NCBI GenBank assembly: GCA_907163375.1
Contig: CAJQUW010007075.1
Location: forward strand, 346,523-410,522
From: Prostheceraeus crozeri
Taxonomy: Eukaryota; Platyhelminthes; Polycladida; Euryleptidae
DNA: 64,000 nt
Direction of reading: 5' to 3'
In this document: piece after piece, positions 37,197 to 55,228 of the stretch
Layout: each line of letters begins with the position of its first letter
Numbering within the stretch: position 1 is the first letter of the stretch
The notes under the pieces: model-generated
Told to the model about the DNA's origin: nothing
Databases searched by the model: none
The model's input: only the letters and a program-made list of their open reading frames with translations
Program-made: the position numbers and the translations under genes

Positions 37197-37341
37197 TTTA
37201 CATGTGAGACGCCATTTAAGATTTTGGGACATTGGTGAAAAACGACAGAGTTAGAATTTGGGACGTTTGGGCTGTAGCTTCAAAACGAACTATCGGATTG
37301 GTAAACGGATGCCAGATTTGGAATCAACTTGATGTTATTGT

Positions 37342-37390
37342 CCAATGAGGATCATCATCCAATGAGAATCAAGCATTTCTTTATAAATAG
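37342..37390 (+). promoter_or_regulatory. Promoter with two CCAAT boxes and TATA box
   Basis: CCAAT at 37342 and 37359 (17 bp apart), then TATAAATAG at 37382, 23 bp after the second CCAAT. The first ATG is 106 bp downstream of the TATA box. The spacing is identical to that of the polymerase promoter at 52941-52988 on the other strand. Confidence 0.75.
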
Positions 37391-37487
37391 CGAGCCTTCC
37401 ACAGTGAGAATCATTCCATCGTTGAATCACACGAGTGACGGACGCACATTTTCTCTCTCTAGTTCCCTGTTCTATTATCCAACTAAA

Positions 37488-38263
37488 ATGGTAAGTCGCT
37501 ACTTCCCTCCCTCTCCTCCCTTGAACGTAAACTTAATACAATCTTTTTTCATTTTCAGGCATCTACTCCATCTGCTGCACTAGTAGGACAAAATGGCGGT
37601 CAAACGTTACAAGGTTCGCTACGGTCAGATCATCTACAACTGAGGCCAGTGGAAGAAACATCCAAGGTACATAATCCTACACCGCTACAGCGTAAATTTA
37701 AACAAGCCTTGCGTTATGATGATCATAGCGTAGTACTCCAAACGGGAATGCTCCCTTCCACGGATGTCAAGATAATGCACAATCAGTATGGGGACTACAT
37801 ACTGATCCCCGTGAGTCCGTACATTCGCCACCAACTTGATATTATTGAGGAGTACGTGACATTAAATATGGACATTCCTACTCCTCTTGCTCAAGAGTGG
37901 AAGGCGAGAGATGACAAGGATACTCCCTATAGAAAGATTTGGGATGGTAATCACATTTGCCTACCGGTATCACATTGGTGTACTTACTATAAGAAGGAGG
38001 GAGATCATTCAATACCCATCAGATGTGATGAGCTCGGAGAAGGTACTTGGGATATCCTTTTCAAAGTGAATGGGCTATATTATGGTCGACACAAGGATAA
38101 TAAAATAGCCTCTCTCTCCATGCATATGGAATCCATCCTATATATTCCGAAACCACCCAACGTGGACGACATAATTGATCAAATCCTTAACAGCAGTGGT
38201 ACGAAGCGCAAGTCGGAGAAGAATGCTACATCAAAACGCAAATCAAAGAAGGAGAATTGCTAG
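37488..38263 (+). CDS. Polinton protein of unknown function, spliced
   Basis: Exon 1 contributes only the ATG (37488-37490). The donor GTAAGT begins at 37491, a 68-bp intron ends in 'ttttcag' at 37558, and exon 2 (37559-38263) continues in frame for 235 codons in all. Without splicing the open frame has no suitable ATG near its beginning, which supports the intron. The product has a Lys/Arg-rich C-terminal tail ('KRKSEKNATSKRKSKKE') that could act as a nuclear localisation signal, and a hydrophobic/aromatic middle. I recognise no domain. It is the first gene of the rightward block and has an early-type promoter like that of the polymerase. Confidence 0.65.
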
Positions 38264-38297
38264 TCCTTTCCTAACTCTACCCTATGACAATTCGCTT

Positions 38298-38423
38298 ATG
38301 TGCTTTGAGTGTCGTAGACGTGGTCTTATTAGATACATTTTACTTCTTCGTTGCCATCATATCATTTGTGTATTTTGTCGTGAAAAGCATCGATGTAATT
38401 CTTCATTTTGTAATATGTTATAG
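38298..38423 (+). CDS. Small RING-like cysteine/histidine protein
   Basis: 41 codons from ATG 38298; the frame is open upstream to 38175, overlapping the previous gene. Cys/His spacing C-x2-C, then C-x-H-x3-C-x2-C and further Cys resembles a compact RING or related zinc finger. It may be an exon rather than a separate gene, since 'ttttag' acceptor-like sites lie nearby. A second RING-like ORF lies at 39507-39830. Viral RING proteins are often ubiquitin ligases; that role is inference here. Confidence 0.4.
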   Translation: MCFECRRRGLIRYILLLRCHHIICVFCREKHRCNSSFCNML

Positions 38424-38475
38424 AACGTTTCCTTAGATGTGTAAATTTCCGTTTTAGGCTTCTATCATCATTTTT

Positions 38476-39006
38476 ATGGATTGTGAGGGTGAACCTGTAC
38501 AGGAGCTCAGTGCTATTGCTATGAACAATTGGACATATCAGATTGTTAGTGTCTATCATCAACATGCCAACTGCGATCCCAATGTTGATCAATGGGCGAG
38601 AAAACACATTCATGGACTTAATCTGAAATATTTGCAAGACTATGGCTTTTCTTGTGAGAGTGCTCTTCTTATTGACTTTAAACGATGGTTAGCTGCTTTC
38701 AATGTTATACGCATCTTTTGTAATAATCCTGGTAAGGAGAGGAAAGTATTTCCCAATCTAATCATTGATGATATTTTGCTCCCACCTTGGGATAGTAGAG
38801 TGAATCAACATTATCATGAAGTCACAAAACGTTTTAAGGATTTGTGTGTTCCTATTTTGTCTGTTCGTTGTAGTAGCTACGTTCATAACCAATGCTTCTT
38901 TCCTCCTTACCTCAACACTGCCAAAGTCCTGTATGGTTATCATTGCTCGCTGTATGATAGTTACCAGCTGTATCTATTTTATCTCTTTCAAACCATTGAT
39001 TTATAA
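38476..39006 (+). CDS. DEDDh exonuclease-like protein
   Basis: 176 codons. Right after the start is 'MDCEGE', fitting exonuclease motif I (D-x-E). Near the C-terminus 'GYHCSLYD' fits the H-x4-D motif III of the DEDDh class. The middle acidic motif is not certain. Family members are 3'-5' exonucleases acting on DNA or RNA ends. The usual domain is about 170-180 residues, close to this ORF. An acceptor-like 'ttttag' at 38452-38457 means a short upstream exon is possible. It is located in the early rightward block. Confidence 0.45.
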   Translation: MDCEGEPVQELSAIAMNNWTYQIVSVYHQHANCDPNVDQWARKHIHGLNLKYLQDYGFSCESALLIDFKRWLAAFNVIRIFCNNPGKERKVFPNLIIDDILLPPWDSRVNQHYHEVTKRFKDLCVPILSVRCSSYVHNQCFFPPYLNTAKVLYGYHCSLYDSYQLYLFYLFQTIDL

Positions 39007-39093
39007 TGCATGCTTGTTACCATTATTCAATAAATGTTACTATGAGAAGAGTTGTTGTTTTCATGCAATGGATGGGTTAGATAAAGGGCGATC

Positions 39094-39504
39094 ATGTCTT
39101 TCTCAAACGACTGCGGAACATTACGTTTTCATAGGCAAAGTTTAAAAGGAGCTGTTCAAGATTATGTGATAAAATTTCATAAAGATGAGACCGACATCGA
39201 AGCAGTGGTCGATGATGCTAGCACTCTATTTCTAGAGTTAATGAATACATTCTCTGATAGCATTATCATGGCGCGATTAGTTGCGAAAATTAAGTTTAGT
39301 CATTTTGGAAAGGAAGAGGTGGAAAGTCGCTCTTTCCATTTTGCTTCTTATTCAATGGAAGTGGTAGATCACCCCCAAGAATTTTTTAAAAGACATATGA
39401 TAAAAATTGCTGAACGTCTTAACGCATTTAACCATCATGGTAGCAGTCTAGTGATTGAAGCGATTTCAGATATTCACATTCAACTTTCCATAAAGAAAAA
39501 TTGA
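39094..39504 (+). CDS. Stand-alone copy of polymerase N-terminal domain
   Basis: 136 codons. The segment from 'MARLVAKIKF' through 'FHFASYSMEVVD', 'FNHHGSSLVI' and 'IHIQLSI' can be aligned with the DNA polymerase gene of the same element, which at about 52020-52190 has the same order: 'LKLKYIKI', 'FHIPSSSATEVVD', 'FNQRDSALIF', 'AIFKISL'. So the protein is a free-standing relative of the region that precedes the zinc fingers and exonuclease of Polinton polymerases. The function of that domain is unknown; a role in replication complex assembly is a guess. Confidence 0.65.
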   Translation: MSFSNDCGTLRFHRQSLKGAVQDYVIKFHKDETDIEAVVDDASTLFLELMNTFSDSIIMARLVAKIKFSHFGKEEVESRSFHFASYSMEVVDHPQEFFKRHMIKIAERLNAFNHHGSSLVIEAISDIHIQLSIKKN

Positions 39505-39506
39505 AA

Positions 39507-39830
39507 ATGCAGTGGTACTTGATTGTAGCACAACTGGTTTTCGAGCTATGTCTGCTCACTCTCGAAGTATATTCCTTCTGTACATGCGTCTATTATTTAG
39601 AAAAGGCTAGCAAATTCATATCTTCAAAAAGACTTGCTATAGACATCAGTAACGGTGAAACTATGTGTTGCGATGTATGTAAGCGAAAGGATGGAAATGA
39701 AAAGCGCATCTTCAAGAGATGTAAGCATGCTTTTTGTCAACGCTGTTTCATACGTAATTGCATTCAACTTTGCCAATGTAACCACTGTGACATTGCTCAT
39801 TTCGAGTGTCACTTATGTCGCAATAGTTAG
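39507..39830 (+). CDS. Membrane-anchored RING-finger-like protein
   Basis: 107 codons from ATG 39507, overlapping the previous stop region by a few bases at most. A hydrophobic N-terminus (about residues 3-30) looks like a signal anchor. The C-terminal half has CC-x2-C...C-x-H-x2-C-x2-C...C-x-C-x2-C, a RING pattern. Membrane-bound RING proteins of viruses commonly act as ubiquitin ligases; the sequence supports zinc binding and a membrane segment only. Confidence 0.5.
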   Translation: MQWYLIVAQLVFELCLLTLEVYSFCTCVYYLEKASKFISSKRLAIDISNGETMCCDVCKRKDGNEKRIFKRCKHAFCQRCFIRNCIQLCQCNHCDIAHFECHLCRNS

Positions 39831-39882
39831 TACCTATGCAAATGTGGTAAAGATAGGTTTTTAGCAAAGACTAACACGGAAA

Positions 39883-40239
39883 ATGGCGAAACGTAAAATG
39901 ACGAAACGTAAAAGTCAAAAGTTTTCTTCAGCCATTCAAGCTCTCCGACGAATGAAAGCAAATCAGCGATACAATGCTATACGACATGCTAACGATAAAT
40001 TCATTTGTGAAATTATTTCTCATGTGAGGAAGTTGAGGACGAAGAAATTAGCGCCAAAACAACGAAAGTTACTTAAGCGATATGCTACGAAATTGCGTTT
40101 CATCTCCAATCCTAAAGTCGCCCTTCAAAGAAAGAGGAAAACTCTAACACAAAAGGGCGGTTTCCTTTCAGCAATACTTCCAATGATAGCTCCTGCCGTG
40201 GGCAACCTATTGGGAAATATCTTTGGCTCTAAGCGTTAA
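39883..40239 (+). CDS. Small basic virion core protein, pX-like
   Basis: 118 codons, very rich in Lys/Arg over residues 1-90. Then comes 'TQKGGFLSAIL' and a hydrophobic Gly/Pro/Leu tail ending 'LLGNIFGSKR'. The Q-K-G-G-F junction resembles the Gly-Gly sites cut by adenain-type proteases. A basic part joined to a membrane-active-like tail is the layout of adenovirus-type core/pX proteins and of adintovirus relatives. It sits directly upstream of the ATPase, and a similar junction occurs in the protein at 42887-43342. Confidence 0.55.
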   Translation: MAKRKMTKRKSQKFSSAIQALRRMKANQRYNAIRHANDKFICEIISHVRKLRTKKLAPKQRKLLKRYATKLRFISNPKVALQRKRKTLTQKGGFLSAILPMIAPAVGNLLGNIFGSKR

Positions 40240-40270
40240 TTATGCAAATGTTGAGTCTCAAAGTAATAAA

Positions 40271-40888
40271 ATGGATTTCAGACTTCAATGTGATAAAGTT
40301 CTGACTGTATCAGGTCCATCTCATGCAGGTAAAACTGTTTTCACGCTGAATTTATTGGATAAAAGAAGGGAGTTGTTTAAGGAACCTATCAATCGAGTGA
40401 TTTGGTGTTATGGTATTTATCAACCGTCGCTGTTTCAGGAATTGCAAAGTCGCAACTTTATTCGACATGAAGGAATTATTCCAGTGGATAAACTTCAGTC
40501 TAATGATGTTGTTGTATTGGATGATTTATTAAAAGAAAGTAAGAATTCAAAAGATGTTACAGATATGTTCACTCGCGCAGCACACCATAAAAGGTGTTTT
40601 ATCATCTATATTACACAAAATTTGTTTCCTGATGGAAAAGAAGCTCGTACACGAAACCTGAATACACACTATTATGCTATTTTCAAGAATCCGCGAGATA
40701 AAAGTCAATTTGAAATTTTAGCGCGACAAGTTGCACCCAGAGGATCAAAAGCCTTAATTGAAATTTTTCAAGCAGCTACTGAAAAACCATACGGTTACTT
40801 ATTCATTGACTTTACGCAAGAGTGTCCGGAAGAATTTAGATTTCGAAGTGATATTTTGAAAACTCCCATGATTATCTACAAACTATGA
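40271..40888 (+). CDS. Genome-packaging ATPase (FtsK/HerA family)
   Basis: 205 codons from ATG 40271; the frame is open to 40223, but that start would overlap the previous gene. Walker A is GPSHAGKT at residues 15-22, Walker B VVVLDD at 80-85, and a TQN sensor at 115-117. This is the A32-like packaging ATPase of Polintons, adintoviruses and other double-jelly-roll viruses, which pumps DNA into the capsid. Length and motif spacing are normal for the family. The stop overlaps the next start (ATGA arrangement at 40885-40888). Confidence 0.9.
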   Translation: MDFRLQCDKVLTVSGPSHAGKTVFTLNLLDKRRELFKEPINRVIWCYGIYQPSLFQELQSRNFIRHEGIIPVDKLQSNDVVVLDDLLKESKNSKDVTDMFTRAAHHKRCFIIYITQNLFPDGKEARTRNLNTHYYAIFKNPRDKSQFEILARQVAPRGSKALIEIFQAATEKPYGYLFIDFTQECPEEFRFRSDILKTPMIIYKL

Positions 40889-41577
40889 GTTCTTATTCTC
40901 GCATGATTGTTATTCCTCAGGATGAATATGTACAATTGACTGCCATGCAGCAAGTAAAGCAACCTCTTGCAAATCAAATGTATAGGAAAGAAATAGATTA
41001 TCAGCAAAATGTTCACATCAAAGATCCACATCGTGCTGTATTATTACAATCGGAAACTGTTGAGCAATTGAAAAACTTGAAGAATAAGATGCGTGACTCT
41101 GTATCGACTGCTACACCTTTAGCATCTCGCGCACATGCCATATCTCTTTTCAACAGTATTGAACCCCATCTCAATGTAAATGATAGAGGAGAAATCATTA
41201 CAGATGAAAATAAAGTGATTGATGCTTCACGTTATGAAGACTTGATTCAGTATGCGACACGTAGAAAGCGCCGTCAGGGCTATGTTCCACCTGGTTGGTC
41301 ATACTTTCTTAAACTATTGAAAAAGCATAATGTGCCAAAATTTGCTTTAAATAATGAGACATTGAAAGAACTTGATTCAACAGTGGCTACTACTCCAATG
41401 CTTCAGGCGATGAAAATGCCAACAAATTGGTTTAAGACGTCACCTGCTACATCCCCTCCCACACTCACTAAGCAAACAAGGGGAAGAACTCGACGTAGAT
41501 CTGTATCGCCACTAAAACTGGTAAAAGGAAAACGTAAAACAGCTCCTCCTAGGAAATACATGTTCTCAGACTATTAA
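40885..41577 (+). CDS. Conserved Polinton protein of unknown function
   Basis: 230 codons, overlapping the ATPase by 4 bases. It contains a central 'VPPGWSYFLKLLKKHNVPKF' block, a coiled-coil-prone region near residues 55-75, and a Lys/Arg/Pro-rich C-terminus (from about residue 190) likely to bind DNA or act as a nuclear signal. I believe similar proteins accompany the ATPase in other animal Polintons but cannot name a function. A minor virion component is plausible. Confidence 0.6.
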   Translation: MSSYSRMIVIPQDEYVQLTAMQQVKQPLANQMYRKEIDYQQNVHIKDPHRAVLLQSETVEQLKNLKNKMRDSVSTATPLASRAHAISLFNSIEPHLNVNDRGEIITDENKVIDASRYEDLIQYATRRKRRQGYVPPGWSYFLKLLKKHNVPKFALNNETLKELDSTVATTPMLQAMKMPTNWFKTSPATSPPTLTKQTRGRTRRRSVSPLKLVKGKRKTAPPRKYMFSDY

Positions 41578-41578
41578 T

Positions 41579-41794
41579 ATGAAGCAGATGTGTTGCTTGC
41601 CATGTAATGAGCCGCCAGAGGTGAATGTCGTTGTCACTTGCACTTGCTGCGCCAGCTCTCATAATGAAACCCCTAAGCAATGTGAACACGATCGCAAAAC
41701 CGCTAAAGCTAAATGCTGCAGTTGTTGTAAATGTAGAAAGGCAAGAAAGAAAAAAGATGAGAAGGAGGAAAAAGAGTCAGCCGTCATCGACTGA
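41579..41794 (+). CDS. Small cysteine-rich protein overlapping integrase start
   Basis: 71 codons. About 13 Cys occur in metallothionein-like clusters (MCCLPC, CTCCASS, CCSCCKC), followed by a highly charged Lys/Glu tail. It begins 1 base after the upstream stop, and its 3' end overlaps the integrase start (41757) by 38 bp in another frame. Tight packing and strong Cys bias argue for a real small gene, possibly metal binding. No homolog is recalled. Confidence 0.5.
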   Translation: MKQMCCLPCNEPPEVNVVVTCTCCASSHNETPKQCEHDRKTAKAKCCSCCKCRKARKKKDEKEEKESAVID

Positions 41795-42845
41795 ACGTTT
41801 GAAGTCAATCTATTATGATGTAAAACATCCGGCAGGATTTGCATCTATCAAGAAATTATCAAAAGCGAGTGGTCTTCCACAATCACAAGTGAAACGATGG
41901 TTAAAGGGTCAGGCTACCTATACACTCCACAAACAAGCGAAAAAGAAGTACCGCACCCGCCATTATATTGTTCATGACATCGATGAACAGTGGCAAGCAG
42001 ATTTGTGCGATGTTGCCTCCATTTCAAAACATAACTCGGGCAATAATTTTATTTTAACCGTCATTGATATTTTCTCGCGTTATGCGTGGGCTCAACCTTT
42101 AAAAACTAAAGAAGGGAAAGGAGTAGCAAAAGCATTCCAAACAATTTTTCGAGAAGGTCGCATTCCAAAAAGAATTCAGAGTGATCAAGGAAAAGAGTTT
42201 GAAAATCAGCATGTGACAAGATTATTTGAGAGGCATGACATTGAGTTGTTTAGTGTAAAGAGCGCTTATAAAGCTGCACTCGTTGAACGTTTTAATCGCA
42301 CATTAAAAAATCGTTTGTGGCGACATTTTACTGCCAACTTGACACAAAATTGGACAAAGGTTCTACAAGATACACTCCATGCCTACAATCACTCTATCCA
42401 TCGTTCTATTGGACTCAGACCAGTAGATGTAAATGCTGACAATGTAGATAAAGTGCGCGAATCATTCCAACGTAAACGCACTCATGTGAAAAGTGATGTG
42501 AAAATTGGCGATAAAGTTCGTATCTCAAAAGTGAAAAGTGTTTTTGCTAAAGGGTACCTCCCGAATTGGACAGAGGAGGTATTTACAGTATCAAGGATTA
42601 ATCAAAAAGACTCTCCGACCACCTACAAGTTGAAAGATTACGATAATGAAGAAATTGAGGGTAGCTTTTACCGCGATGAGATTGAGGTAGTCACTGAAAG
42701 TGAAACATATTTGGTAGAGAAAATCATTCGATGTAAAAAACGGCAAGGTGAAGAATGGTGTCTTGTTAAATGGACTGGTTATCCTTCAAGTATGAACTCT
42801 TGGATGCGTCGTGCCGACATCTTTCATCTAAGTGATCGACAGTGA
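41757..42845 (+). CDS. Polinton integrase with C-terminal chromodomain
   Basis: 362 codons from ATG 41757; the frame is open to 41625 with a non-homologous-looking leader. An N-terminal helical region (IYYDVKHPAGFAS...VKRWL) is followed by the rve catalytic core with D82 (QADLCD), D143 (QSDQGKEF) and E177 (ALVERFNRTLK), a D,D(33)E spacing. Residues about 317-355 form a chromodomain (YLVEKI...WCLVKWTGYP...SW). The enzyme inserts the linear element with 6-bp staggered cuts, in agreement with the CTCAAA duplication. All three catalytic residues are intact. Confidence 0.95.
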   Translation: MRRRKKSQPSSTERLKSIYYDVKHPAGFASIKKLSKASGLPQSQVKRWLKGQATYTLHKQAKKKYRTRHYIVHDIDEQWQADLCDVASISKHNSGNNFILTVIDIFSRYAWAQPLKTKEGKGVAKAFQTIFREGRIPKRIQSDQGKEFENQHVTRLFERHDIELFSVKSAYKAALVERFNRTLKNRLWRHFTANLTQNWTKVLQDTLHAYNHSIHRSIGLRPVDVNADNVDKVRESFQRKRTHVKSDVKIGDKVRISKVKSVFAKGYLPNWTEEVFTVSRINQKDSPTTYKLKDYDNEEIEGSFYRDEIEVVTESETYLVEKIIRCKKRQGEEWCLVKWTGYPSSMNSWMRRADIFHLSDRQ

Positions 42846-42886
42846 TTCATGCAAAGTTGTAACTAACAATGTTTAGGGTTTGAGCT

Positions 42887-43342
42887 ATGAATCCAACTGC
42901 CTCATTTTATTCACGACCCTCCTACGTAAGTGGTGGAGGACAAATTTACATCGGTGCTCGCCGCCAACGTGGAGGTAGCATACTTGGTGCACTGAAATCT
43001 GTTGTAGCACCTCTCATATCCAATGTCGGTAGATCTTTAAAACGAAATGTTTTAAGTAATGCCGTTGGCTTTGCTGGTGATGTTGCTAGTGATCTTTCCA
43101 GAGGTAGAAGTTTTAAGAGCAGTTTGTTGAATCGTGGGAAGGAACGCGGTTTAAAAACATTGAAGCAGACCATTGCTGGTGTTACTCAAGGAAAGAAATC
43201 ACCTAAACGAATGAGAAAAGGAAGGAGGAAACATCGCGGAGCTGGTAAGGTGCGATCTTCAGTCAAAAGGCATTCACGCAAACGTCGCAGAGGCTCTAAT
43301 CATTCATCAGGCGCTAAACGACGACGCTGCTATAACTTCTAA
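42887..43342 (+). CDS. pVI-like minor virion protein
   Basis: 151 codons. After an N-terminal 35-residue leader the motif 'RRQRGGSILGALKSV' looks like an adenain-type Gly-Gly cleavage site followed by an amphipathic helix, the layout of adenovirus protein VI (membrane-lytic, capsid interior). The C-terminal 50 residues are extremely Lys/Arg-rich with an 'SGAKRRRCYNF' end. The final residues could be the protease cofactor-like peptide with a Cys, by analogy with adenovirus. It lies between integrase and capsid gene. Confidence 0.6.
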   Translation: MNPTASFYSRPSYVSGGGQIYIGARRQRGGSILGALKSVVAPLISNVGRSLKRNVLSNAVGFAGDVASDLSRGRSFKSSLLNRGKERGLKTLKQTIAGVTQGKKSPKRMRKGRRKHRGAGKVRSSVKRHSRKRRRGSNHSSGAKRRRCYNF

Positions 43343-43344
43343 TC

Positions 43345-44622
43345 ATGGAGTGTAAAACTTCCGGTTTTTGTTTGTTCGATCAACAAGCCATACAGACAGA
43401 TATTCTTAGTTCAAGTATTGTAGATTATCATCCTCGAACAGCTGAGAATGCTGGCCCCATTGAATTTGTTATTCCTGGTGGTAGTGATGACTACATAGAT
43501 TTGAGTTATGCGATGCTTGATTTGAGGTTTAGAATTCAGCAAGCAGATGGAACTGCTATTGACGATGCACATAAAGTTGGACTGAACAATTTACCATTGA
43601 CTACATTACTTCGCGATGTTTCTCTAACGATTGGAGAGCAGCAGGTGGAAGGTGGTCAAAGCGATTATCCCTATAAATCATATTTCAATCATGTATCACA
43701 GTTTCATCCAGCAGCACAAAAAAGTCATATGGAAGCCATGGGATGGTACAGAGATGAAGCAGGAAAATTTGATGTTGAAACAAACAGTGGCTTTGTAAAG
43801 CGATCTGCTATGATTAAAGATAGTAGAGTATGTCAGCTATATGGTCCGCTGAATTTAGACTTCTTTAGACAGTCAAAGTTTTTACTCTGTAATACCAGCA
43901 TGCGACTCAAGCTGACATTGAATAAGCCTGAATTTGCGCTGAATGCATTTGCTAAAGTTGACAATTTTAGAATTCATGTGGAAGATATTGCACTTTACAT
44001 TCGTCGAGTAGTACCGAATCCAAGTGTCATTAGAGGGCATGCTGAAGGTCTTAACCGCCAAAATGCCATTTACCCCGTTCAGCATACAAAGCTTCTCACC
44101 TTTACAATTCCGAAAGATCAAAAGAGTTTCATGAAAGATGGCCTCTTTCCATCGGAAGCACCGAAGCTCCTCATGGTGGCAATGGTTGAAAATGATGCAT
44201 TTAATGGTAATATAAAGAAGAATCCTTTCAATTTTAAACACAATCAGTTAAGTGAAATTGCTTTACGTGTTAATGGTGTGAGTCATCCTGGTCCACCCTA
44301 CAAACCAGATTTTGCTTCGGATCAATTTATGCGCAGTTATGTTGATTTTATGGATGTCTTTGGCTTTTACAATACGGATGATACCAACGGACTGACTATG
44401 AAAGAATTTAAGAGTGGATATACTATTTATGCATTTGATTTGACTGCTGACAGCGATATTAGTGCACCCTATCGTCAAGCGAACGTGCCTCATAATATTC
44501 GTTTGGATTTGACGTTCAAAAGAACACTACCTGAGACGATCAATGTATTAATTTATGCAGTCTTCGATTCAAATATTGAAATTACAAAGTATCGTGACGT
44601 GATTCTTCAGTATAATCGTTAA
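43345..44622 (+). CDS. Major capsid protein, double jelly-roll (F54H12.2-like)
   Basis: 425 codons, intact. It includes 'PIEFVIPGG', 'YIDLSYAMLDLRFRI', 'LRDVSLTIGEQQVEG', 'DYPYKSYFNHV', 'LLCNTSMRLKLTL' and near the end 'YTIYAFDLTAD' and 'RLDLTFKRTLPETINVL'. These are the conserved blocks of the Polinton major capsid protein family (C. elegans F54H12.2 and relatives), which builds T=pseudo-numbered icosahedral shells from hexons. The stop codon overlaps the protease ATG (TAATG). Confidence 0.9.
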   Translation: MECKTSGFCLFDQQAIQTDILSSSIVDYHPRTAENAGPIEFVIPGGSDDYIDLSYAMLDLRFRIQQADGTAIDDAHKVGLNNLPLTTLLRDVSLTIGEQQVEGGQSDYPYKSYFNHVSQFHPAAQKSHMEAMGWYRDEAGKFDVETNSGFVKRSAMIKDSRVCQLYGPLNLDFFRQSKFLLCNTSMRLKLTLNKPEFALNAFAKVDNFRIHVEDIALYIRRVVPNPSVIRGHAEGLNRQNAIYPVQHTKLLTFTIPKDQKSFMKDGLFPSEAPKLLMVAMVENDAFNGNIKKNPFNFKHNQLSEIALRVNGVSHPGPPYKPDFASDQFMRSYVDFMDVFGFYNTDDTNGLTMKEFKSGYTIYAFDLTADSDISAPYRQANVPHNIRLDLTFKRTLPETINVLIYAVFDSNIEITKYRDVILQYNR

Positions 44623-45032
44623 TGAGTTGGTTGACTGCTGACGATATTAAGACTAAAGTGCAGCGTAATGCAGACGAAGCGACGTTGAAAGCTTTCGATA
44701 ATGTCTATTCACTCGATACCTTACCACCTGCAGTAAATCACTATCCCATCTTTATTGTGCTAAACACTCATTCACAGAATTTAGGCGGTGAGCATTGGAA
44801 AGCGATCTTTATTGGAGAAGACCGACGTGGTGAACTATTTGACTCTCTTGCTCAACCTCCAAATATACCAACACAGCAGTGGTTGAGAAAACATACGCGT
44901 CAATATCAGCGAAATGAACGCATACTACAACATCCACTTTCATCAACGTGTGGTGCTTTTGTACTGTACTTCATCTTAAAACGTTTACATGTATCTCGAT
45001 TTGCATCTGTTATTCAAAAACTTTTCATGTAA
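44622..45032 (+). CDS. Adenain-like maturation cysteine protease
   Basis: 136 codons, translationally coupled to the capsid gene by a 1-base overlap. The catalytic triad can be read: H58 (GGEHWKAIFI), D74 or E71 (GELFDSL) and C110 (SSTCGAFVLYF). It belongs to the C5/Ulp1-type protease family that processes capsid and core proteins during virion maturation; candidate substrates are the two Gly-Gly-containing proteins of this element. An AATAAA at 45080 probably serves as polyadenylation signal. Confidence 0.9.
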   Translation: MSWLTADDIKTKVQRNADEATLKAFDNVYSLDTLPPAVNHYPIFIVLNTHSQNLGGEHWKAIFIGEDRRGELFDSLAQPPNIPTQQWLRKHTRQYQRNERILQHPLSSTCGAFVLYFILKRLHVSRFASVIQKLFM

Positions 45033-45109
45033 TCCATCCTCTAATGAAAAATGATTTGTAAGTTCTATCATGATTTGAAATAAAAACATCATGTTGGAAA
45101 AATTGTTTT

Positions 45110-45655
45110 TTATTTTACAATCCGCTGGGTACGTACATACTCAATGAGATAGTCTAGGATCATATTTGCTTGTTCATGAGATTTTAGTCCAGTAATGATC
45201 ACTTTACTATTATGAAAGATTGCCACATGCACAGGCAACCAACAACTAATGAGAGCTGCAGGAAAAAGTTCGGGTTCATAACACAAACTGTAACTGCTGG
45301 TACGAATCTTCAAAAATGATAGACTGTCACTCAATTGAGTAGAGATCACCATATTGTCCACAGTCAGATTCGACATCACACACCTCTCCCTCTTCCATAT
45401 CCGACGTAGTAGTCTCTGTAGCTCTAAGCGCATTGACTGCGCCGATGAATGAGAAAGGGCGCCGAGAATCTGTACAGTCCCATTTGGGAAGAGTTGAAGA
45501 TTCCGTGAATTGTTCATCTTCACCACTAACATTTGAGGACGGCCCGGGTAATACTTGCTGTTTGGAAGCTGTTGGCGTAATGTTGTGAGATCGATTTTGG
45601 TGTAGAGTCTGAAGCGACGGAGAATGTTGACGATGGTGTAGCGATGGCGCTTCAT
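45110..45655 (-). CDS. TATA-binding protein (TBP) homolog encoded by Polinton
   Basis: 181 codons from ATG 45655 (the frame is open to 45799). Two pseudo-repeats of the TBP saddle are present: repeat 1 about residues 7-86 ('IDLTTLRQQLPNSKYYPGRP', 'NLQLFPNGTVQILGA'), repeat 2 about 97-176 ('VDNMVIST', 'YEPELFPAALI', 'VAIFHNSKVIITGLKS'). Three of the four DNA-intercalating Phe of TBP are kept (F56, F131, F147); the first is Pro at residue 40. The length equals the TBP core. It probably directs transcription of the element's TATA promoters. It overlaps the next ORF in another frame and ends convergently with the protease gene. Confidence 0.85.
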   Translation of the reverse strand: MKRHRYTIVNILRRFRLYTKIDLTTLRQQLPNSKYYPGRPQMLVVKMNNSRNLQLFPNGTVQILGALSHSSAQSMRLELQRLLRRIWKRERCVMSNLTVDNMVISTQLSDSLSFLKIRTSSYSLCYEPELFPAALISCWLPVHVAIFHNSKVIITGLKSHEQANMILDYLIEYVRTQRIVK

Positions 45656-45977
45656 GATGAAAGAATGAGTAAATTGAGCGATGTACCTTCCTTTTATACT
45701 TTTCCCAACTACCTTGATGAAATGTGAAGTTAGTATGAAGTTGGGAATGATAGAGTTGAATTCGCCGATTGTTGACGCGCAGCCAGATGCGATTTCCAAT
45801 ACGTGAATGTCTTTTCATATAGAAGTATTTCAAGTCCTTCATGATATGATGTAGAGATTGAAAATGACGATAAGATAAAACAAACTCTCTTCTCACATTT
45901 CCAGTTGAATCTTTGAAATAGACGTTTCGATCATGATCCGTTTCAATACGTTGTAGGGAATCTAATTTCCAACTCAT
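45327..45977 (-). CDS. Paralog A of a Polinton gene pair, possible PC4-like fold
   Basis: 216 codons. Residues 1-108 are paralogous to the whole 46000-46356 product: both have 'W-LDSLQ', 'NVYFK/NVHFK', 'IMKDLKYF/IMRDLEYF', 'WEKY' and 'HRSI'. The beginning, with a strand-rich stretch then 'L-x-RxF-x-L-x-x-IM', recalls the PC4 single-strand-binding cofactor; this is tentative. The C-terminal half (from about residue 110) is low complexity and acidic and overlaps the TBP-like gene in a different frame for about 330 bp, so it may be overprinted or the real protein may be shorter. Confidence 0.55.
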   Translation of the reverse strand: MSWKLDSLQRIETDHDRNVYFKDSTGNVRREFVLSYRHFQSLHHIMKDLKYFYMKRHSRIGNRIWLRVNNRRIQLYHSQLHTNFTFHQGSWEKYKRKVHRSIYSFFHHEAPSLHHRQHSPSLQTLHQNRSHNITPTASKQQVLPGPSSNVSGEDEQFTESSTLPKWDCTDSRRPFSFIGAVNALRATETTTSDMEEGEVCDVESDCGQYGDLYSIE

Positions 45978-45999
45978 GGTGCGTGGTAATCATATCTGA

Positions 46000-46356
46000 T
46001 TAAGATTTGCATAGTAGGGCGATGAACTCACGACGAATAAATGTCATGATGGAGCGATGTATGTATCTTCTATACTTCTCCCAATTGTATTTGCGAAATG
46101 AGAAACAGTTTGCGGAATGAGAATGGTAGATTTGAATTTCATTTCTGTAATGTTGAAGCCAAACTTGATCACCCAAGGAGATGAATCTTAATGTTTCAAA
46201 ATATTCCAAATCCCTCATGATATCATTGAGGTTGACAAATTGTCGCCATGTTAATGTAATTCCTCTTGATGTATGACCATGAGAATTTTTGAAATGTACG
46301 TTTCCATCACGATCAACTCTGATATATTGTAGAGAGTCCAAAATCCAAGTCTTCAT
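46000..46356 (-). CDS. Paralog B of a Polinton gene pair, possible PC4-like fold
   Basis: 118 codons from the ATG at 46356, which aligns with the start of paralog A (an in-frame ATG also exists at 46368). It is the short form of the domain in paralog A without the acidic tail. Tandem position and same strand show a local gene duplication. It lies upstream of, and in the same direction as, paralog A and the TBP-like gene, suggesting one transcription unit. Only 35 bp separate its start from the divergent penton-like gene at 46392. Confidence 0.6.
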   Translation of the reverse strand: MKTWILDSLQYIRVDRDGNVHFKNSHGHTSRGITLTWRQFVNLNDIMRDLEYFETLRFISLGDQVWLQHYRNEIQIYHSHSANCFSFRKYNWEKYRRYIHRSIMTFIRREFIALLCKS

Positions 46357-46391
46357 GATGTTATGCAAAGTTGCAGATTAGCAATATAAAA

Positions 46392-47156
46392 ATGTCGTTT
46401 TATCATATTTTGCTTAGCAATGCGGCTACAAAGAGATTTACTAGCAATCGAGCCGCACTCTTTTCTACTCCCATTGATCATGCACAACAGCTAAATGGGA
46501 ATTTGGAAGTGGGTGTCACTCAACTTGTTTATAGCAACTGTGTCTATACTTTTGATCATGAGGTGATGACTATTAATATGAGACGTACAGCTGCTTATCA
46601 ATGTGAAAAGGGCTGCCGAGTATACATTCCACAGTGGCCAAAGAAAGATCTCTTATCATGTAAAAAGTTTATATATGATTTCTTGAATAAAGCGTGTAAA
46701 CATATTGTCCAATTTACTCCGCACAATGATGATTATAATTATGTACATCATGTAGTTGAGAAAGATTGGATTGTTGGTTTAAGTCCAAGTTTAAGAAATG
46801 ATTTAGGTTACCTCGCTAGCGCCTTAACAAGCTATGATAATTTTAACGTTAATTACCACATAAGTGGTCATAAACAGTTAATATATCGAGAGGAAGCTTA
46901 TTATGTAGATCTTATTCCAAGAAATGAGAAGACGTTGGTGAAGAAGATTGTGATTAAGCCAAGAAAGACAAACATGACTCCTGAAACATTATTGAAGAAA
47001 TTTAATTATCTCCTTCGAGTTGATGGTAAACAAGTGGCAACATTGACTTATATTAAATCATCTAATCATATTGCAATAAGCAAATTAAATGATGATGATC
47101 TAGTATTAGTTTGTTCAAAAGATTTTCATCAGTTCTTGCGACATCATTCTGCAGCT
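46392..47156 (+). CDS. Penton-like/minor capsid protein, N-terminal part
   Basis: 255 codons from ATG 46392 before the frame runs into a G/T tract. It begins 'MSFYHILLSNAA', then 'FSTPIDHAQQLNGNLEVGVTQLVY'. This is the typical opening of a large Polinton protein in which a beta-rich domain starts with a '...LPSN...F..L..PI.L.G.WEVAL.E' pattern, often regarded as penton or fibre-like. No further domain is certain. The gene continues after the tract in fragments. Confidence 0.55.
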
Positions 47157-47533
47157 GGGGGTGGGGGGGGGGGGGGTGGGTGGGGGGGGGGGGGGGGGGT
47201 GGGGTGGGGGGGTGGGTGGGGGTGGGTGGGGGGGGGGGGTGGGGGGGGGGGTGGGGGTTGAGGGGGGGTGGGGGGGGGGGGGGGGGTGCGGGGTCGGGCG
47301 GAGTGGGGGGGGTGGGGGGGTGGGGGGGTGGGGGGGGGGAGGTTGGCGGGTGGGAGGGTGGGGGGGGGGGGGGGTGGGGGGTGGGGGGGGTGGGGGGTTG
47401 TGTGGTGGGGTGTTGGGGAGGGGGTGGGGGGGGGGTGGGTGGGGTGGGGGGAGGTCGGTGGTTTGCGGGTGGGTTCTGTGTGGGTGGTAGGTGTGTGCTG
47501 CTTTGTTGGAGGGTGGGGGATGGTTTGGGGGTG
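47157..47533 (+). repeat. G/T-rich low-complexity tract
   Basis: About 375 bases made almost only of G with scattered T, becoming mixed from about 47400 and ending in GC-rich sequence near 47570. It interrupts the penton-like gene. The long open frames over it are artefacts of composition. It may be an expanded repeat or unreliable sequence. Confidence 0.85.
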
Positions 47534-47559
47534 TGTTTGTTTGTTGTTTCCCGCGCCCC

Positions 47560-48614
47560 CCGCCTGTTTGCGCTGGTCTAAAGGTCTTACGCTGAGGTTG
47601 GATAGTGAATTCTATCCGCATCTCGGTTTTGGTCATGGACTACATCTAACGTCAATTGCTACTGCAAATGATTAGAAAAGTTTTTTCAAATCGAATCACA
47701 AATTTCATTATAGATTTAAAATATTTGCTGAAGATGTTGTAAATGCCAAGAACGCATCATTTTGAAAAAGCGTGGTGTTCAACTTTATCACTTATGAGTT
47801 AGTAAAACGATGAATGAACTGAGGGTAAGAAGTATGGAGAGAAAATTATGGCGGACGGACAAAAATAAGTTGGTTATTCGAAAAATAATGACAAACTTAC
47901 AGTTTATATCTCTCCAAACTTTGCGTCATTTGTAAGACATTATACACCGATATTGGAAGCGGGTGGTGTAGCTTCTCATGAATATCAACACTAAAGCGAT
48001 TCAGTTAATGATGAATGGTGGTGGACATCTATGCGGATCGCATCAAGAAAATTTCCCAGTCTTATGAAGAATCTAAAGTTGCTAATCAATATAATGCCCT
48101 GCGTCATATATCATTTACAACAGTTGAAAGCTTCATTCATGTAGTAAATCCTTATATACAACAGAAGTTGAAGGCATGTGATGAAAAGTAAATATGATGT
48201 AAAGACACACCACATTTCGTTTTCAATTGAAAAATCAACGCGTTGTTCTGAAACTGGGTTGATGACATTCAATGTCAATGAGTAAAAAGAGGTTTGAAAA
48301 AACTCTTTGGTTTTTCAATGCTACAAACTGTGTTTGCTGCTGCGCATACGATTGGTATAGAAACACCAATGACACTTGATAAACATGAACAGCACCTTTA
48401 CATTCAAAGTGATTTGATTCTACCTATTTCTGTTGGCGAGAAAAAAGAATACATTTTACGTGATTTCATTCATGATAAAGACGCTTCATATGGAATAGTC
48501 GAGAAGATGTTTGAATCTATTTTCTATCATCCCGTCGTCAAAACAAACTATACCCTCTATTGCTATCAAAATTACCAATGGTTTACAAGAGTGTATCCAT
48601 GTGAAAGATACTAA
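47560..48614 (+). pseudogene. Penton-like gene, fragmented C-terminal part
   Basis: Coding-like pieces occur in different frames: about 47585-47675 ('RLDSEFYPHLGFGHG'), about 47890-47995 ('VYISPNFASFVRHYTPILEA'), about 48022-48191 ('ADRIKKISQSYEESKVANQY') and 48294-48614 ('LYIQSDLILPISVG', ending 'FTRVYPCERY'). Several frame changes and stops separate them. They probably belong to the gene starting at 46392. An AATAAA at about 48676 follows the last piece. Confidence 0.5.
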
Positions 48615-48830
48615 ATCCCTCGTAACTTTAGTGTTTCGGAAAACAAAGTGAAGTCATTGTGATATGTTTATTGAAATAAAAATATGTATATGAAAAAGTC
48701 TTTTCACAGATATAGGGGGAATGGGCTGACTGTAGGCATATATTCACAAGGAAGAAACGATCTCATGCGATACATAAAACAACCATGTATATCTACAAAA
48801 AGCAACATCAAAATACTGAGTTAAAGTTGA

Positions 48831-51800
48831 TTATGTCAATACATCTCCTGAATGTGGTAGCGTGAGTTTTATTCTTTTGGGTGGAGGTATGTTTGTGTCA
48901 GGATGTCCATGTGGAAGAGATGTGTTATGTCCTATCCAACACCTCTTATCCTCCCATGCTGAAAGTGCTCGTTTCTTGAACGTGTACGTTTTTCACAGTA
49001 TGAACTTGAGATTTTAAGATTGTCATATTGACAAACGTTATAGTTTTATTTTTATAGGCCTTCTTATAGGACCGATGTTTCATTTTATGAACAATGGATT
49101 TTGATATACCTTTAGCACGCTTAATACTATCTGCACATTCTTTTAGTTTCATGGAATACATTTTAGGACGGAGGAGAATCATTTCATCTATTTCCTTTCC
49201 TGCTGTTTTCATCCTTAAAACAACCAAGTTTGGCTTTATTCTGTATGGAATAGAGTGGATGAGTGGGATTGTAGTTAGATGTATCGAAATATTTTTCTAA
49301 TGACTTACCTACTTCATTAAAATTTAAATCTTTTTTGAGTGGTAATTCCTAAAAAGAAACTATCTGTATCACCACCCAGCAAGCGAACCTCTTTTACGAG
49401 AGGGCATGGTTTTAATATTTTGTAGAAGAGTTGATACATTTCAAGCTTGGAATAATCTAAAACGGCTTGCCCAATATAGATGGGTTTGCACAACTCAACT
49501 TCTGATTTAATCATTTTAACACCTACAAGATCCTCATCGATGATGTCTCTATCAATGAAAAGAGGTGATGAGGTCAATTTGTGATATTTTTGTTCATCAA
49601 CGACTAGTTTGTAATTCATACGTTTTCTAACATCCTCCATGGTCTTTCCGAATAGACTATTATTCTTATATTTATAAAAATCCTTTTCAAAATTATTTTG
49701 GGCGAGTGCACGTTTTTGACTGTTACTATCTATGTAGGGTTTGAGGAAGGCTTTCTGTCTAAATTTGATAATGCGGTGAACTGACTTTAGAAGCATGCCC
49801 ATTTCTAAATAGAATTTTAATATGCAGAAGTGTACGAGATAATTTTTCTTATCATATTGGGTGAGTAAAAGTTTGCGGCATGGTTTGTACCTTGGCTGTC
49901 CACACTCTGTTAAGTTATTATGAAATTGTGACATGAATGGTGAAAACATATCTTCAGTCACTTCGCCAGATTCAGGTGCGAGTGGGAAATCAGCAGTTTT
50001 ATTTTTAATACTATTTGGATAAATCAAATCCACTTCAAAATAATATCCCCAATCACCTTCATCTGGAATATTCAGTATGTTTGAAGGGTTGGAGTAATAC
50101 TCAAGCTCATTTTGATTTAACCAACTAAACTCGGAATGAGGTAGTGGTTTAGACAGTGAACTGCCATATAAATTATTTTGGTCATAGTACTTTAGGTGGA
50201 TATGATCATCACCTACTGTTTCAGATTTTATATGATGTTTATTTACAAATGTGAGACCACCGCGTATTCCGCGCTCAAATATATTATACATCTCCGGGTC
50301 TTGTAAGAGATGAATGGTCTCACCAGTCATTTTAAAGGCTGATTTAAAGGACATGGCTGGTAGACTGACAAAGTGGATAGGATCTAATTTGTCTTCTTCT
50401 AATGCCACTCGTCGAAACTCCTGAAAGACATCAGCCAGCAAAATGACATCTAATTCTAAGTAAGCGATCATATAATCGCCAAACGTTTTACAATTAAATT
50501 TTAACCATGCCTCTTGAGCATGTTCATAGTCCTCTACTGGACAATCTTCACCCGTCAAATCGTTTTTGAATTTGTCAATGGAAGGAAGGGTTGTTTCATT
50601 TAGTTTAGACATTGAGCTAAAATACGCATAAGGAAAGACTCCTTTGCGAGTGATTATTTCATCCGTTAAGTTTGGATAGTGTTTCTTCAAAGTTTGACTA
50701 TGGGGAAGAAACTTGAGATTACGAACGAGAGAAGCTAGTGACGCTGACATGAATTGAAATGAATCTAAAAATTTTATTTCGAAGAAGACTGTCTTATTTT
50801 CTTTAGTTTTATCTACTGGTACTTTTGCTGTCATTGCCATGAATTTTTCTCTCGTTTGTGCTATTACATTAAACTGCCACGATTTCATCTGGCTCAACCC
50901 TCCTTTTATGAGCATATGACTGTCATAGCCCTTAAAGTTATGAAAAATGACGGGTAGTACACGACGTCTCAACCTAAGTGAAAAGTTACATTTGGAGCAG
51001 AGTGCGTTTCTAAATTTACCAGTGATGTGATCATGATCACGCACTTTCTTAATTTTATCGTCATCAAACGTTTTATGACATTTAGGACAGGATGTGCAAC
51101 TTTCAAATTTTTGTTTGTCTTCATCTGACATATGTAGTGACTTACGCTGCAATTGGGAATCATATGATTGTTGAAATTTTGCAGCTTTATCGAGAAATTC
51201 TAGAAATTTTGAAATGCAATCTTCACCTTGCCAAGTATGCATTTTGTTTTGTCTATTCCTAAAGTGGTCATGCCATACTTCATAGCAGGATATGGCTGCT
51301 GGCTTGTGGATGATATCATCAATGTAGCATTCTATGTCTGCGTAAATGACACGCAGGGACTTAATTCGTCACCATTATCCCTATGTGAAAATATTTTATC
51401 TTTGGGCATGCGTTCCATTTGTAATTTACCTCGCTTGCACCATTCATAGTGAGTTTCAAATTTATCTTTACTCCAAAATGAGCGGATGCAGCGGTCGCAT
51501 ACAAAATGTTCACCTCTTTTAGAGTGCCCCAAGTGAGTGTACAAGCGAGAGATTTTGGGAATACCACAGTAGTGCCATTCCTCGCTATCATCTTGTTTTA
51601 CTAATAAGAGGTTGACTACACGTTCATAACAAGTTGAACGTGAATTATAGCGGGCACCCTTCAACCCCTTCTCCCACACGTGAACGACAATTTTAATCTT
51701 ATTATGTTTTTCGAACGTTTCTACATCTTTGATTTTCATGTTGTTACTATCACAACCTTCAAAGTCTAGTTCATCCTCCCACTGTCTATAGCTATAGGTG

Positions 51801-52805
51801 CGATCTCGATGCGCGTTGATATCATTATAGTGAAGGATGGATAGGACTGCATATTTGAAACACTGTGATTTACAATCAACATTGATGACAGCTTTCTTAT
51901 TATACAACGTTTTTGGAAGTTTAAATGTGCCTCGAGCTGCATGACTTTCTAATAGGGAAATTTTGAATATGGCTGAGTCCACACCATCAAAAATGAGAGC
52001 GCTGTCGCGTTGATTGAATTTATCTACATTTGATTTTAAACATTGAATGTGAAAATTTAGCCAAGACTCGCAGTCTACAACTTCGGTTGCGGAAGAGGAA
52101 GGAATATGAAACTGTATTCTCTCCGTCACTTGACCCGTTTGAAAATCTATTTTAATATATTTTAGTTTAAGGTAGATGAGCGCCTTCATTCTAAAATTGT
52201 CTAAATTATTGAAGAGCGCTTCGATAATGTTAGAATTTTGAAGGAGCCACTCAGGAAAATCTACAATTTGAGTATTGGACTCCATGCAGTAGTCGCGTAC
52301 TAAATTATTATGTGAAACATTAATGAGGGAGATGGTAGAGGTACCGTTGGTGTAGTGATCATTTGCATGCGTGTGTTGAAGTCTGTGCGAAGATCGCTGA
52401 AAGTGACTATCAAAAGAAAGAGGGCACAAATCGCAAGGAAAGGAGATGTCATCGTCAGAATCAACTTCACCTCCGGAGATTGACGCCGCTTTGCGTTGAC
52501 ACACACGTTGTTTGATGTGTCGAAGGAGACTGTGCTTCCTTGTAAACATATGTCCGCAGTCGGCACATTCCCACTCGTTGCCTTGCCGCGAGAGTCCTGA
52601 GCTGGAACTCACATCACCTGAAAGAGAAATCATTCTTTCATCTCTGTTCAAGCCTCAGTGTAGTGTTACAACCTACCTTGACTCAATAACTCTAAACTTT
52701 CCTCGAGAAGAGAGGGCGTTGGTGATGAAGTTGATGTCTGAAATTGAGGAAGATGCTATTAGTCACACGTTTGAGGGAGATGAGAGGAAATTTTCAACTT
52801 ACCAT
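48831..52805 (-). pseudogene. Protein-primed DNA polymerase B, spliced and frame-broken
   Basis: Exon 1 is only the ATG (52803-52805), intron 1 52738-52802, exon 2 52677-52737, intron 2 52618-52676, then a long exon. In order: C2H2 fingers (CADCGHMF and CDLCPLSF), a domain shared with the 39094 gene, 'CKSQCFKYAVLSIL', a Cys finger (CDRC...H...C), exonuclease motifs ADIE, 'NFKGYDSH' and 'YLELDVILLAD', palm motifs 'NNLYGSSL', 'KNNSLFGK' and 'GDTDS', and a C-terminal 'LRPKMYS' and 'WEDKR' region. Frames change near 51350, 49330, 49230 and 48975, so this copy would not make a full enzyme unless these are sequencing indels. It replicates the element from a protein primer. Confidence 0.9.
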
Positions 52806-52940
52806 TTCAACGAAATCAAGTTTAAGGTTGATACTTCTACAAGATAGAGACTTCACTCAAATAATAGTCAAAGAGAGAGATCGTGCGTTCGTCACTTGTA
52901 TGATTCACAGATTAAATGAAATGACCTGAATGTCACTTTG

Positions 52941-52988
52941 CTTATATACTTTCATCCTCTTCATTCATTGGATGTTCATTCTGATTGG
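52941..52988 (-). promoter_or_regulatory. DNA polymerase promoter: two CCAAT boxes and TATA box
   Basis: On the minus strand CCAAT boxes begin at 52988 and 52971, 17 bp apart. TATATAAG begins at 52948, 23 bp after the second one. The polymerase ATG lies 143 bp downstream of the TATA box. The layout equals that at 37342-37390. Confidence 0.75.
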
Positions 52989-53061
52989 CTGCTTGTGTAT
53001 ACTTAAGAATTAGAAAAATGTTAAAGTTATCATTATTCAAAGTCAGCATTTCAAAGACAAC

Positions 53062-53499
53062 ATGACAAGTCCTCCAACAACACCAAATACCGCATTGGAG
53101 TTCTCCTCTCCATATACATCAGCAAAGGTGCTCGTTACAGCAAATGCACCAAGAAAGGCGAAGGTGGAGAAGACATACAATCTCGACAATATACGAAAGT
53201 TATCATTATCGGAGGAGGATGAAGAGGAGTTGCCCGACCTAACAGGCATACGGTGGAAATATTTACAATATGATGCCGAAGGGGTGATGGAGATGACCAG
53301 CAAGTCGCACTTGCATCAAATATGGGAGTGGTACACCCCTAACTCCCAACCGCGAACCGTGGCGGAGTGGGCGTACATTGAGAAAGTGAGGGACGCTGCA
53401 GAAGAACGTTTAAAGCAGCTCAACTGTTTTTGTAATCTATGTGAAGCCAGACTCTGGGACGATATTGACGATGAAGACCTTTTGAAATACATGCCATAA
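53062..53499 (+). CDS. Acidic Polinton protein of unknown function
   Basis: 145 codons, divergent from the polymerase (256-bp shared upstream region with a TATACTTAA near 52997). The N-terminus is Pro/Thr-rich and an acidic cluster lies at about residues 48-58 (LSEEDEEELPD). Trp-rich motifs follow (GIRWKY, HQIWEWYTP, VAEWAYI), then two Cys pairs (CFCNLC) and an acidic end. An AATAAA directly follows the stop. No family is recognised; the position next to the polymerase suggests an early or regulatory protein. Confidence 0.5.
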   Translation: MTSPPTTPNTALEFSSPYTSAKVLVTANAPRKAKVEKTYNLDNIRKLSLSEEDEEELPDLTGIRWKYLQYDAEGVMEMTSKSHLHQIWEWYTPNSQPRTVAEWAYIEKVRDAAEERLKQLNCFCNLCEARLWDDIDDEDLLKYMP

Positions 53500-53544
53500 T
53501 AAATGTTTATTTCGTATTATCTTTGCTTTCATACTGACTTACTT

Positions 53545-54368: not shown

Positions 54369-54706
54369 AGAGAGAAGTGTGTTATGTTGCGTGTGGCGCG
54401 TGAGTGTCCTCCCATTTCATTCCATTCATCAATTCGTCTCATTGATAGAGACAGGTAGAACTCATGGTTCTCATAACGTATGCAATGGAAAGTTTTAGGC
54501 AACCTTCGACAGTTGGCTAAATGTCGCCCTGACGCGAATGCATGCTACGTTGAGACAGAGGCAATCACTTGCAAACATGACGCAGAGAGGTTTAACAAGA
54601 TTGACCATTGCCGAATGTCCCTTGCGGTATACATAGCTACGGGTTTCACCGCCGCCCTTTACAGGAACGCCCGTCGAAAGGAAGTATTACACCGAACTTC
54701 ATTTGC
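54369..54706. other. Intergenic Polinton DNA
   Basis: No convincing gene. A plus-strand ORF at 54480-54884 runs through the repeat and has no family resemblance. Confidence 0.35.
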
Positions 54707-54846: not shown

Positions 54847-54861
54847 TGACAATTAAGTTGA

Positions 54862-55113: not shown

Positions 55114-55228
55114 CGTGACTTCAAATTGAATGAGAAGCGCTACAATCTTCTGGCTTATATAGGGTTTTCAACAATGAATTGCTCAACAGCGAATCAGAAT
55201 GCTTCAGGGATAGCAATCGACTGCATAA

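Follow-up and report, generated by a model that had tools for sequence, protein, structure and literature searches.

The Polinton in the window (the whole stretch of 64,000 nucleotides analysed here) contains a gene for a divergent TATA-binding protein (TBP), and family-wide conservation together with purifying selection show, at the level of sequence, that this is a standing gene of the Polinton lineage. We propose, with somewhat less than even confidence, that the divergent TBP is expressed early and would switch host TFIIB and Pol II to late genes marked by the word TATGCAAA.

The element ends in AGTAGT...ACTACT and is flanked by a 6-bp duplication, CTCAAA, at 36671-36676 and 62478-62483, its terminal inverted repeats being 99% complementary. 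Several hallmarks of Polintons/Mavericks are present: terminal inverted repeats, AGT/ACT-type ends, a 6-bp target site duplication (TSD) and a retroviral-type integrase. The TBP gene sits inside this Polinton, as an earlier note on this DNA had claimed, and the element ends, TSD, integrase and TBP profile match bear that claim out. The features of the element are as follows.

36677..62477, no strand: Polinton/Maverick element with an assembled length of 25,801 bp, counting its poly-G stretches and tandem repeats
36819..37089, plus strand: part of the left terminal inverted repeat, pairing with 61808-61948 and 62133-62270
61808..62270, minus strand: part of the right terminal inverted repeat, pairing with the left repeat
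39883..40239, plus strand: small basic ORF with a weak match to adenovirus core protein X (PF05829, E 0.0024, below cut-off)
40271..40888, plus strand: packaging-ATPase-like ORF with a weak match to Pox_A32 (PF04665, E 0.022 on the 40223 frame, below cut-off)
41625..42845, plus strand: integrase (PF00665, E 1.2e-10) with chromodomain (PF00385, E 6.5e-7)
42887..43342, plus strand: small basic ORF with no convincing Pfam family match
43345..44622, plus strand: putative major capsid protein, by position
44622..45032, plus strand: Adenain/Ulp1-like protease (PF02902, E 0.001, 19.4 bits against a cut-off of 20.7; PF00770, E 0.036)
45110..45655, minus strand: TBP gene, 181 aa
45656..45977, minus strand: PUR/PC4-fold ORF a, whose open frame continues as far as 45327 and overlaps the TBP gene in a different frame
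46000..46356, minus strand: PUR/PC4-fold ORF b, 118 aa, two bbbba repeats
46392..47156, plus strand: putative minor-capsid ORF, named by position and by the earlier note, entering a poly-G stretch in the window copy
49317..51242, minus strand: part of a putative protein-primed DNA polymerase B, with an endonuclease VII domain (PF02945, E 8.2e-7)

The integrase with its chromodomain and the endonuclease VII domain score above the Pfam cut-offs; the protease, ATPase and core-protein-X matches fall below them. The ORF at 43345..44622, which we take mainly from its position to be the putative major capsid protein, has 263 homologues (the best 120 of the 263 were listed) and no match in Pfam, NCBIfam or PDB. 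The frame at 49317..51242 matched no polymerase family profile, and the DTDS and NSLFGK motifs recognised in it by eye are presumably those of a polymerase B. Poly-G stretches with G-rich noise occupy 47157-47451 (295 bp, inside the putative minor-capsid gene) and 59494-61819 (2,326 bp), and look like assembly or read artefacts rather than element sequence. The right arm also holds tandem arrays at 53550-54368 (a 205-bp unit repeated four times, 98% matches) and 58035-59486 (a 296-bp unit, 4.9 copies); a relative of the second array lies close to the left end, at 37097-37228. The first left-arm gene, at 37488-37559, apparently has its start codon alone as exon 1 and then a GTAAGT...CAG intron some 68 bp long (by eye). 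The ORF at 39507-39830 is Cys-rich and RING-finger-like by eye, while the overlapping 39501-39830 frame gave no Pfam RING match. Outside the element, 33127-33936 forms a near-perfect 300-bp inverted repeat with arms 210 bp apart. The AGT/ACT end motif is the one reported for Mavericks, and the order integrase, small basic ORF, putative major capsid protein, protease agrees with the second module of vertebrate Mavericks (PMC8097293).

The 181-aa product matched the Pfam TBP profile PF00352 in two stretches with 74.2 bits, against a curated cut-off of 22.9, and its predicted fold is the pseudo-symmetric two-repeat TBP saddle; identity to the human TBP core is 22%. Both identity and predicted fold show the gene to encode a divergent two-repeat TBP, so that the two pseudo-repeats which the earlier note had read in the minus-strand frame, and the profile and structure match that it had asked for, are both found. 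Residues were numbered on human TBP for 61 mapped sequences and are given their usual TBP roles (kinking Phe, TFIIB contacts, central Thr). Repeat 2 is kept: Asn257 and Val259 in all 61, Phe288 in 60/61, Phe305 in 61/61 and Thr313 in 60/61, together with the EPELFP stirrup. The TFIIB-contact positions Glu284, Glu286 and Leu287 are kept in 60, 61 and 54 of the 61, and the window protein has all three. In repeat 1, Asn167 (49/49) and Phe214 (61/61) are kept, but Phe197 is Pro in 57 of the 58 sequences with a residue there, Val169 is replaced by Met, His or Leu in most (not Val in 53/54), and Thr222 is Leu, Met or Phe in 61/61. The set of four DNA-kinking Phe is therefore incomplete, Phe197 being lost and the other three standing at 61, 60 and 61 of 61; the retention of three, noticed before in the window protein, holds family-wide. 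The replacements of Phe197 and Thr222 suggest an altered rather than an ordinary reading of DNA.

In a database of 5.8 billion proteins, the window TBP has 60 homologues at 34-81% identity. A tree of 22 family members (the window protein, that of locus L009 and 20 of the 60 homologues) and five cellular TBPs, the host's own not among them, placed the two sets on opposite sides of a branch with support 100/100, separating the viral TBP from archaeal and eukaryotic TBP alike; this split argues for a separate, long-diverged TBP lineage that was not captured from the present host. The other homologues likely also sit in Polintons. Coinciding sizes of the longest contigs (P0002/P0063, 1771; P0016/P0154, 7106; P0065/P0069, 11119) are a weak hint that TBP, PUR and capsid genes are linked. 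No TBP match was found in PHROGs, and IMG/VR returned zero loci with the queries P0001, A1, the putative capsid, the polymerase piece and the capsid alignment A4. Searching genome contigs with the capsid alignment yielded one 3.6-kb contig (L021, WPAE01000167.1), in which a capsid-like ORF is followed by a protease-like ORF (letters partly X) and no TBP was recognised by eye among the listed ORFs, so that a TBP beside the protease need not hold for every Polinton. This contig and P0069 (Ignavibacteria; Pseudomonadota AAGK05) are Polinton-like pieces in records labelled as bacterial MAGs, presumably eukaryote-derived contamination.

The TBP-bearing element is present in many copies in a large genome (2.05 Gb in 14,165 contigs). 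A search with the window TBP gave 11,886 loose candidates, not necessarily real, and all 150 scored places were 100% identical and without stops; the window's own contig is absent from these 150, so the real copy count, at least 150, is higher. A second search with a distant TBP homologue scored 150 places, 147 of them without stops. The earlier note had asked for the same gene at the same place in other Polintons/adintoviruses. Within this genome, all 20 loci examined from both searches align with the window across the TBP and PUR ORFs, and 19 across the protease too, the alignment of L019 ending before it. An open TBP gene is found in 18 of the 20; in L011 the start is missing, in L019 the frame ends early by a few residues, and in L013 the protein is one residue shorter. 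TBP is also broken in L026. A second subfamily, at about 84-88% DNA identity, comprises L009, L022 (on the contig of L009), L023, L024 and L025. Against L023, L024 and L025, the window TBP gives dN/dS values of 0.21, 0.26 and 0.22 (Fisher 1.9e-10, 7.3e-8 and 3.7e-8), and against L009 a value of 0.30, in each case with no stops. Stops in the best-aligned segments of L023, L024 and L025 numbered 1, 1 and 1 for the major capsid protein, 0, 2 and 2 for the integrase, 0, 1 and 1 for the ATPase, 0, 1 and 0 for PUR ORF b, 0, 2 and 1 for PUR ORF a, and none for the protease. Taken with the dN/dS values, which come from loci related to each other and not independent, these counts indicate that TBP is conserved as well as the core genes in copies that are partly decayed.

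The two neighbouring ORFs are 45% identical to each other over 104 aa. ORF b has the bbbba repeat fold of the PUR-alpha/PC4/Whirly kind and is probably a single-stranded nucleic-acid-binding protein, judging from the modelled fold. PC4 was dropped as the identity of these ORFs, PUR-alpha being the closer fold. ORF a shows dN/dS of 0.21-0.35 against L009, L023, L024 and L025, with 1, 0, 2 and 1 stops. In L010, L011, L013 and L018, deletions fuse ORF a and TBP into one open frame of about 290 aa (without the TBP start in L011).

By sequence, the element carries promoters of host type and a second, candidate class of upstream box. Those of host type combine a TATA box with an initiator.

45691..45698, minus strand: TATAAAAG box in the TBP gene's promoter, its first T lying 43 bp upstream of the ATG, with a TCATTC initiator 22 bp past the box
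37382..37389, plus strand: TATAAATA box and initiator of the first left-arm gene, g1 (ATG 37488), kept in the diverged copy L028
52941..52948, minus strand: TATATAAG box and initiator upstream of the C2H2/polymerase side
55154..55161, minus strand: TATATAAG box and initiator, right arm
55676..55683, minus strand: TATATAAA box and initiator, right arm
57723..57730, minus strand: TATATAAA box and initiator, right arm

Six of the 14 TATAWAWR sites in the element have TCAYTY 19-23 bp past the box (binomial 2.4e-8, with the background counted stretch by stretch), compared with one of 27 in the window outside it; the pattern and spacing were picked after the sites had been seen, and a looser pattern gives P 4e-5. 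The six belong to g1, the TBP gene and four right-arm sites, with complete gene models only for the first two. Judged by its letters, the TBP gene's own promoter is of host type, TATAAAAG plus initiator. Among six aligned loci, its box is kept in L009, L023, L025, L026 and L027 and changed in L024; in L013 a small deletion cuts it. In P0003, a 69%-identical homologue, the gene call reads SIKGK before the TBP start, resembling the SIKGR that the window reads in frame over TATAAAAGG, so the box may be conserved there too. A fetched right-arm piece, L029, could not be aligned with window positions 50500-57000.

The earlier note had seen strong TATA boxes in several of the element's promoters and took them, together with the TBP, to suggest self-directed transcription initiation. 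On this reading the viral TBP would be an ordinary extra TBP that raises transcription from the consensus boxes, and the six TATA-initiator sites, the three kinking Phe and the TFIIB stirrup residues all speak for it. The boxes are real, yet consensus TATA lies within 200 bp of only 2 of the 19 listed ORF starts, those of g1 and TBP. Self-directed initiation is plausible but not the best fit, since host TBP can already use, and should already serve, consensus TATA-initiator promoters, and since the viral TBP has lost one kinking Phe and the central Thr almost throughout its family, which points to altered DNA reading. We regard the ordinary extra TBP as unlikely. A better fit is a switch from early promoters of host type to late promoters specific to the virus: a consensus TATA is lacking before most structural genes, and TATGCAAA recurs before several of them.

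46362..46369, plus strand: TATGCAAA candidate late box, 30 bp before the ATG of the putative minor-capsid (penton) ORF, with one change in L009
40241..40248, plus strand: TATGCAAA candidate late box, 30 bp before the ATPase ATG; first base C, not T, in L024
39835..39842, plus strand: TATGCAAA candidate late box, 48 bp before the ATG of ORF 39883; 8/8 positions kept in L023, L024 and L025, and CATGCAAA in L027 (first base C, not T)
42848..42855, plus strand: CATGCAAA candidate late box (first base C), 39 bp before the ATG of ORF 42887; TATGCAAA in the second subfamily (L022-L025)
46006..46013, minus strand: TATGCAAA before PUR ORF a, within the last part of the ORF b coding sequence; altered in L024 and L025

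Upstream of 16 starts, no 8-mer is shared more widely than TATGCAAA (4/16). Its enrichment is modest: an 8-mer was as common in 4 of 300 dinucleotide-preserving shuffled sets, and the 7-mer and 6-mer counts were reached in 13 and 130 of the 300. Its distance to the ATG is 30-48 bp at ORF 39883, at the ATPase, at the minor-capsid ORF and at PUR ORF a; for the TATA box of the TBP gene the distance is 43 bp. Across the four non-coding sites, 98 of 104 box positions are kept in the five second-subfamily loci, against 291 of 414 adjoining non-coding bases plus 28 inserted bases, in 13 alignable comparisons of 20 possible (the other seven were uncovered or not aligned through, and L026 and L027 were not counted because they belong to the subfamily of the window); flanks at the ATPase site are also highly conserved, so the contrast is due to the other three sites. 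The box was not found before 8 of the 16 starts, being absent from the 120 bp before ORFs 38476, 39094 (which has ATGCAATG only), 39507, 40885, 41625 (integrase), 43345 (major capsid protein), 44622 (protease) and 48318; some of these ORFs may be read from an upstream start. Comparison of copies thus reveals a conserved TATGCAAA upstream of several structural-side genes, spaced much alike from their start codons.

TATGCAAA contains ATGCAAA(T), which we take to be the octamer bound by host POU factors, with ATGCAAAT as its consensus. The box could accordingly be an octamer site through which a host POU factor promotes replication or the expression of late genes, the viral TBP having an unrelated role; the sites at ORF 39883, the ATPase and PUR ORF a do end in T. 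Over the four non-coding sites, window included, 19 of 24 rows counted by eye have the T ahead of ATGCAAA, whereas the T after it is found in 12 of 23 and, at ORF 42887, in 0 of 7, and the distance from box to ATG is that of a TATA box. The POU explanation appears rather improbable to us.

A further alternative is that the viral TBP starts no viral genes and acts as a competitor, binding TFIIB, TFIIA or parts of TFIID and so dampening or retargeting host transcription. TBP-related factors that have lost kinking Phe are known (TRF2/TLF and others), and they keep the TBP fold and the surfaces for general factors; unlike the viral TBP they are cellular genes. The retention of Glu284, Glu286 and Leu287 beside a partly altered DNA face is what a competitor would show, but a pure decoy would not need the conserved Asn167, Phe214 and repeat-2 DNA contacts, and we consider this the least probable of the three explanations. 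That the gene is a host retrocopy or a chimeric assembly, which the earlier note had raised, or a recent host capture is ruled out for practical purposes by the low identity to human TBP, the at least 150 identical places, the context shared by 20/20 loci and the 100/100 grouping in the tree, with no point found in its support.

Given the promoter classes and the altered residues, we favour an early TBP that reads DNA differently. Once the element has entered or been reactivated, host TBP/TFIID and Pol II would transcribe the early genes with TATA and initiator, that of the viral TBP included, and the viral TBP would then bind the late, structural genes at the box in TATA position. One half of the box would be gripped in the ordinary way by repeat 2, which keeps its EPELFP stirrup, Asn, Val, two Phe and Thr and would also recruit host TFIIB. 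Repeat 1, altered by the replacements of Phe197 by Pro and Thr222 by Leu, would permit the non-consensus centre of TATGCAAA, after which host TFIIB and Pol II would start the capsid-gene module. The two PUR/PC4-fold proteins may help to open or hold single-stranded promoter or replicating DNA. The altered residues presumably lie in the first repeat and the centre of the saddle, and altered bases lie at the centre of the box; this fits a changed reading and is suggestive, not proof. More tentatively still, an altered-specificity TBP in an element of about 25 kb may redefine the core-promoter code, host TBP reading TATAWAWR early and viral TBP TATGCAAA late with a common Pol II and TFIIB.

Small Pol II-dependent viruses and transposons usually borrow host core promoter factors, TBP being normally supplied by the cell. 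The viral TBP resembles cellular TBP of eukaryotes and archaea (PF00352) in its two-repeat saddle fold, its length and its second-repeat contacts to DNA and TFIIB, and differs in being 19-27% identical, in the replacements at Phe197 (Pro) and Thr222 (Leu/Met/Phe), and in being encoded by a mobile element. Virus-encoded TBPs of giant viruses are among its best BFVD fold matches (the 50 rows listed have 7-20% identity and TMq 0.35-0.74, mostly below cellular TBPs), although giant-virus and mirusvirus genomes are far larger than a Polinton. Algal giant viruses have TBP together with TFIIB (PMC4602308, PMC12085832), giant-virus TBP appears also in PMC11464507, 59% of mirusvirus genomes have TBP (PMC10132985), and TBP genes are sporadic in mirusvirus-like elements of an alga (PMC10675990). 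For the principle there is a precedent in CpV-BQ1, a giant algal virus with genes for TBP and two TFIIB; according to its authors' proposal, factors of this kind divert the RNA polymerase of the host to viral genes (PMC12085832). With Polintons/Mavericks and adintoviruses the element shares its ends, TSD, integrase with chromodomain, protease-like and ATPase-like ORFs and module order; the core gene list of vertebrate Mavericks (PMC8097293) is without TBP, in agreement with the earlier remark that TBP is not a standard Polinton gene. No Polinton TBP was found by title and abstract start among the open-licence papers listed, a coverage that may miss work in subscription journals; TBP and TATA terms are absent from PMC8097293, PMC11071296, PMC11071308 and PMC10120064, and the parts seen of PMC12220804 and PMC7786948 contained nothing relevant to a Polinton TBP and TBP only in a reference, respectively.

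A TBP encoded by a Polinton lineage would demonstrate that the most fundamental factor of promoter recognition can travel with a small mobile element. It provides a TBP that has diverged in nature, with a first repeat that may recognise another box, and a concrete handle on capsid-gene switching, which bears on whether Polintons make virions. The viral TBP could give the element a means of directing the cellular transcription machinery towards the element's late genes and, if the proposal is true, this would be an early-to-late switch at the level of the core promoter carried by a mobile element.
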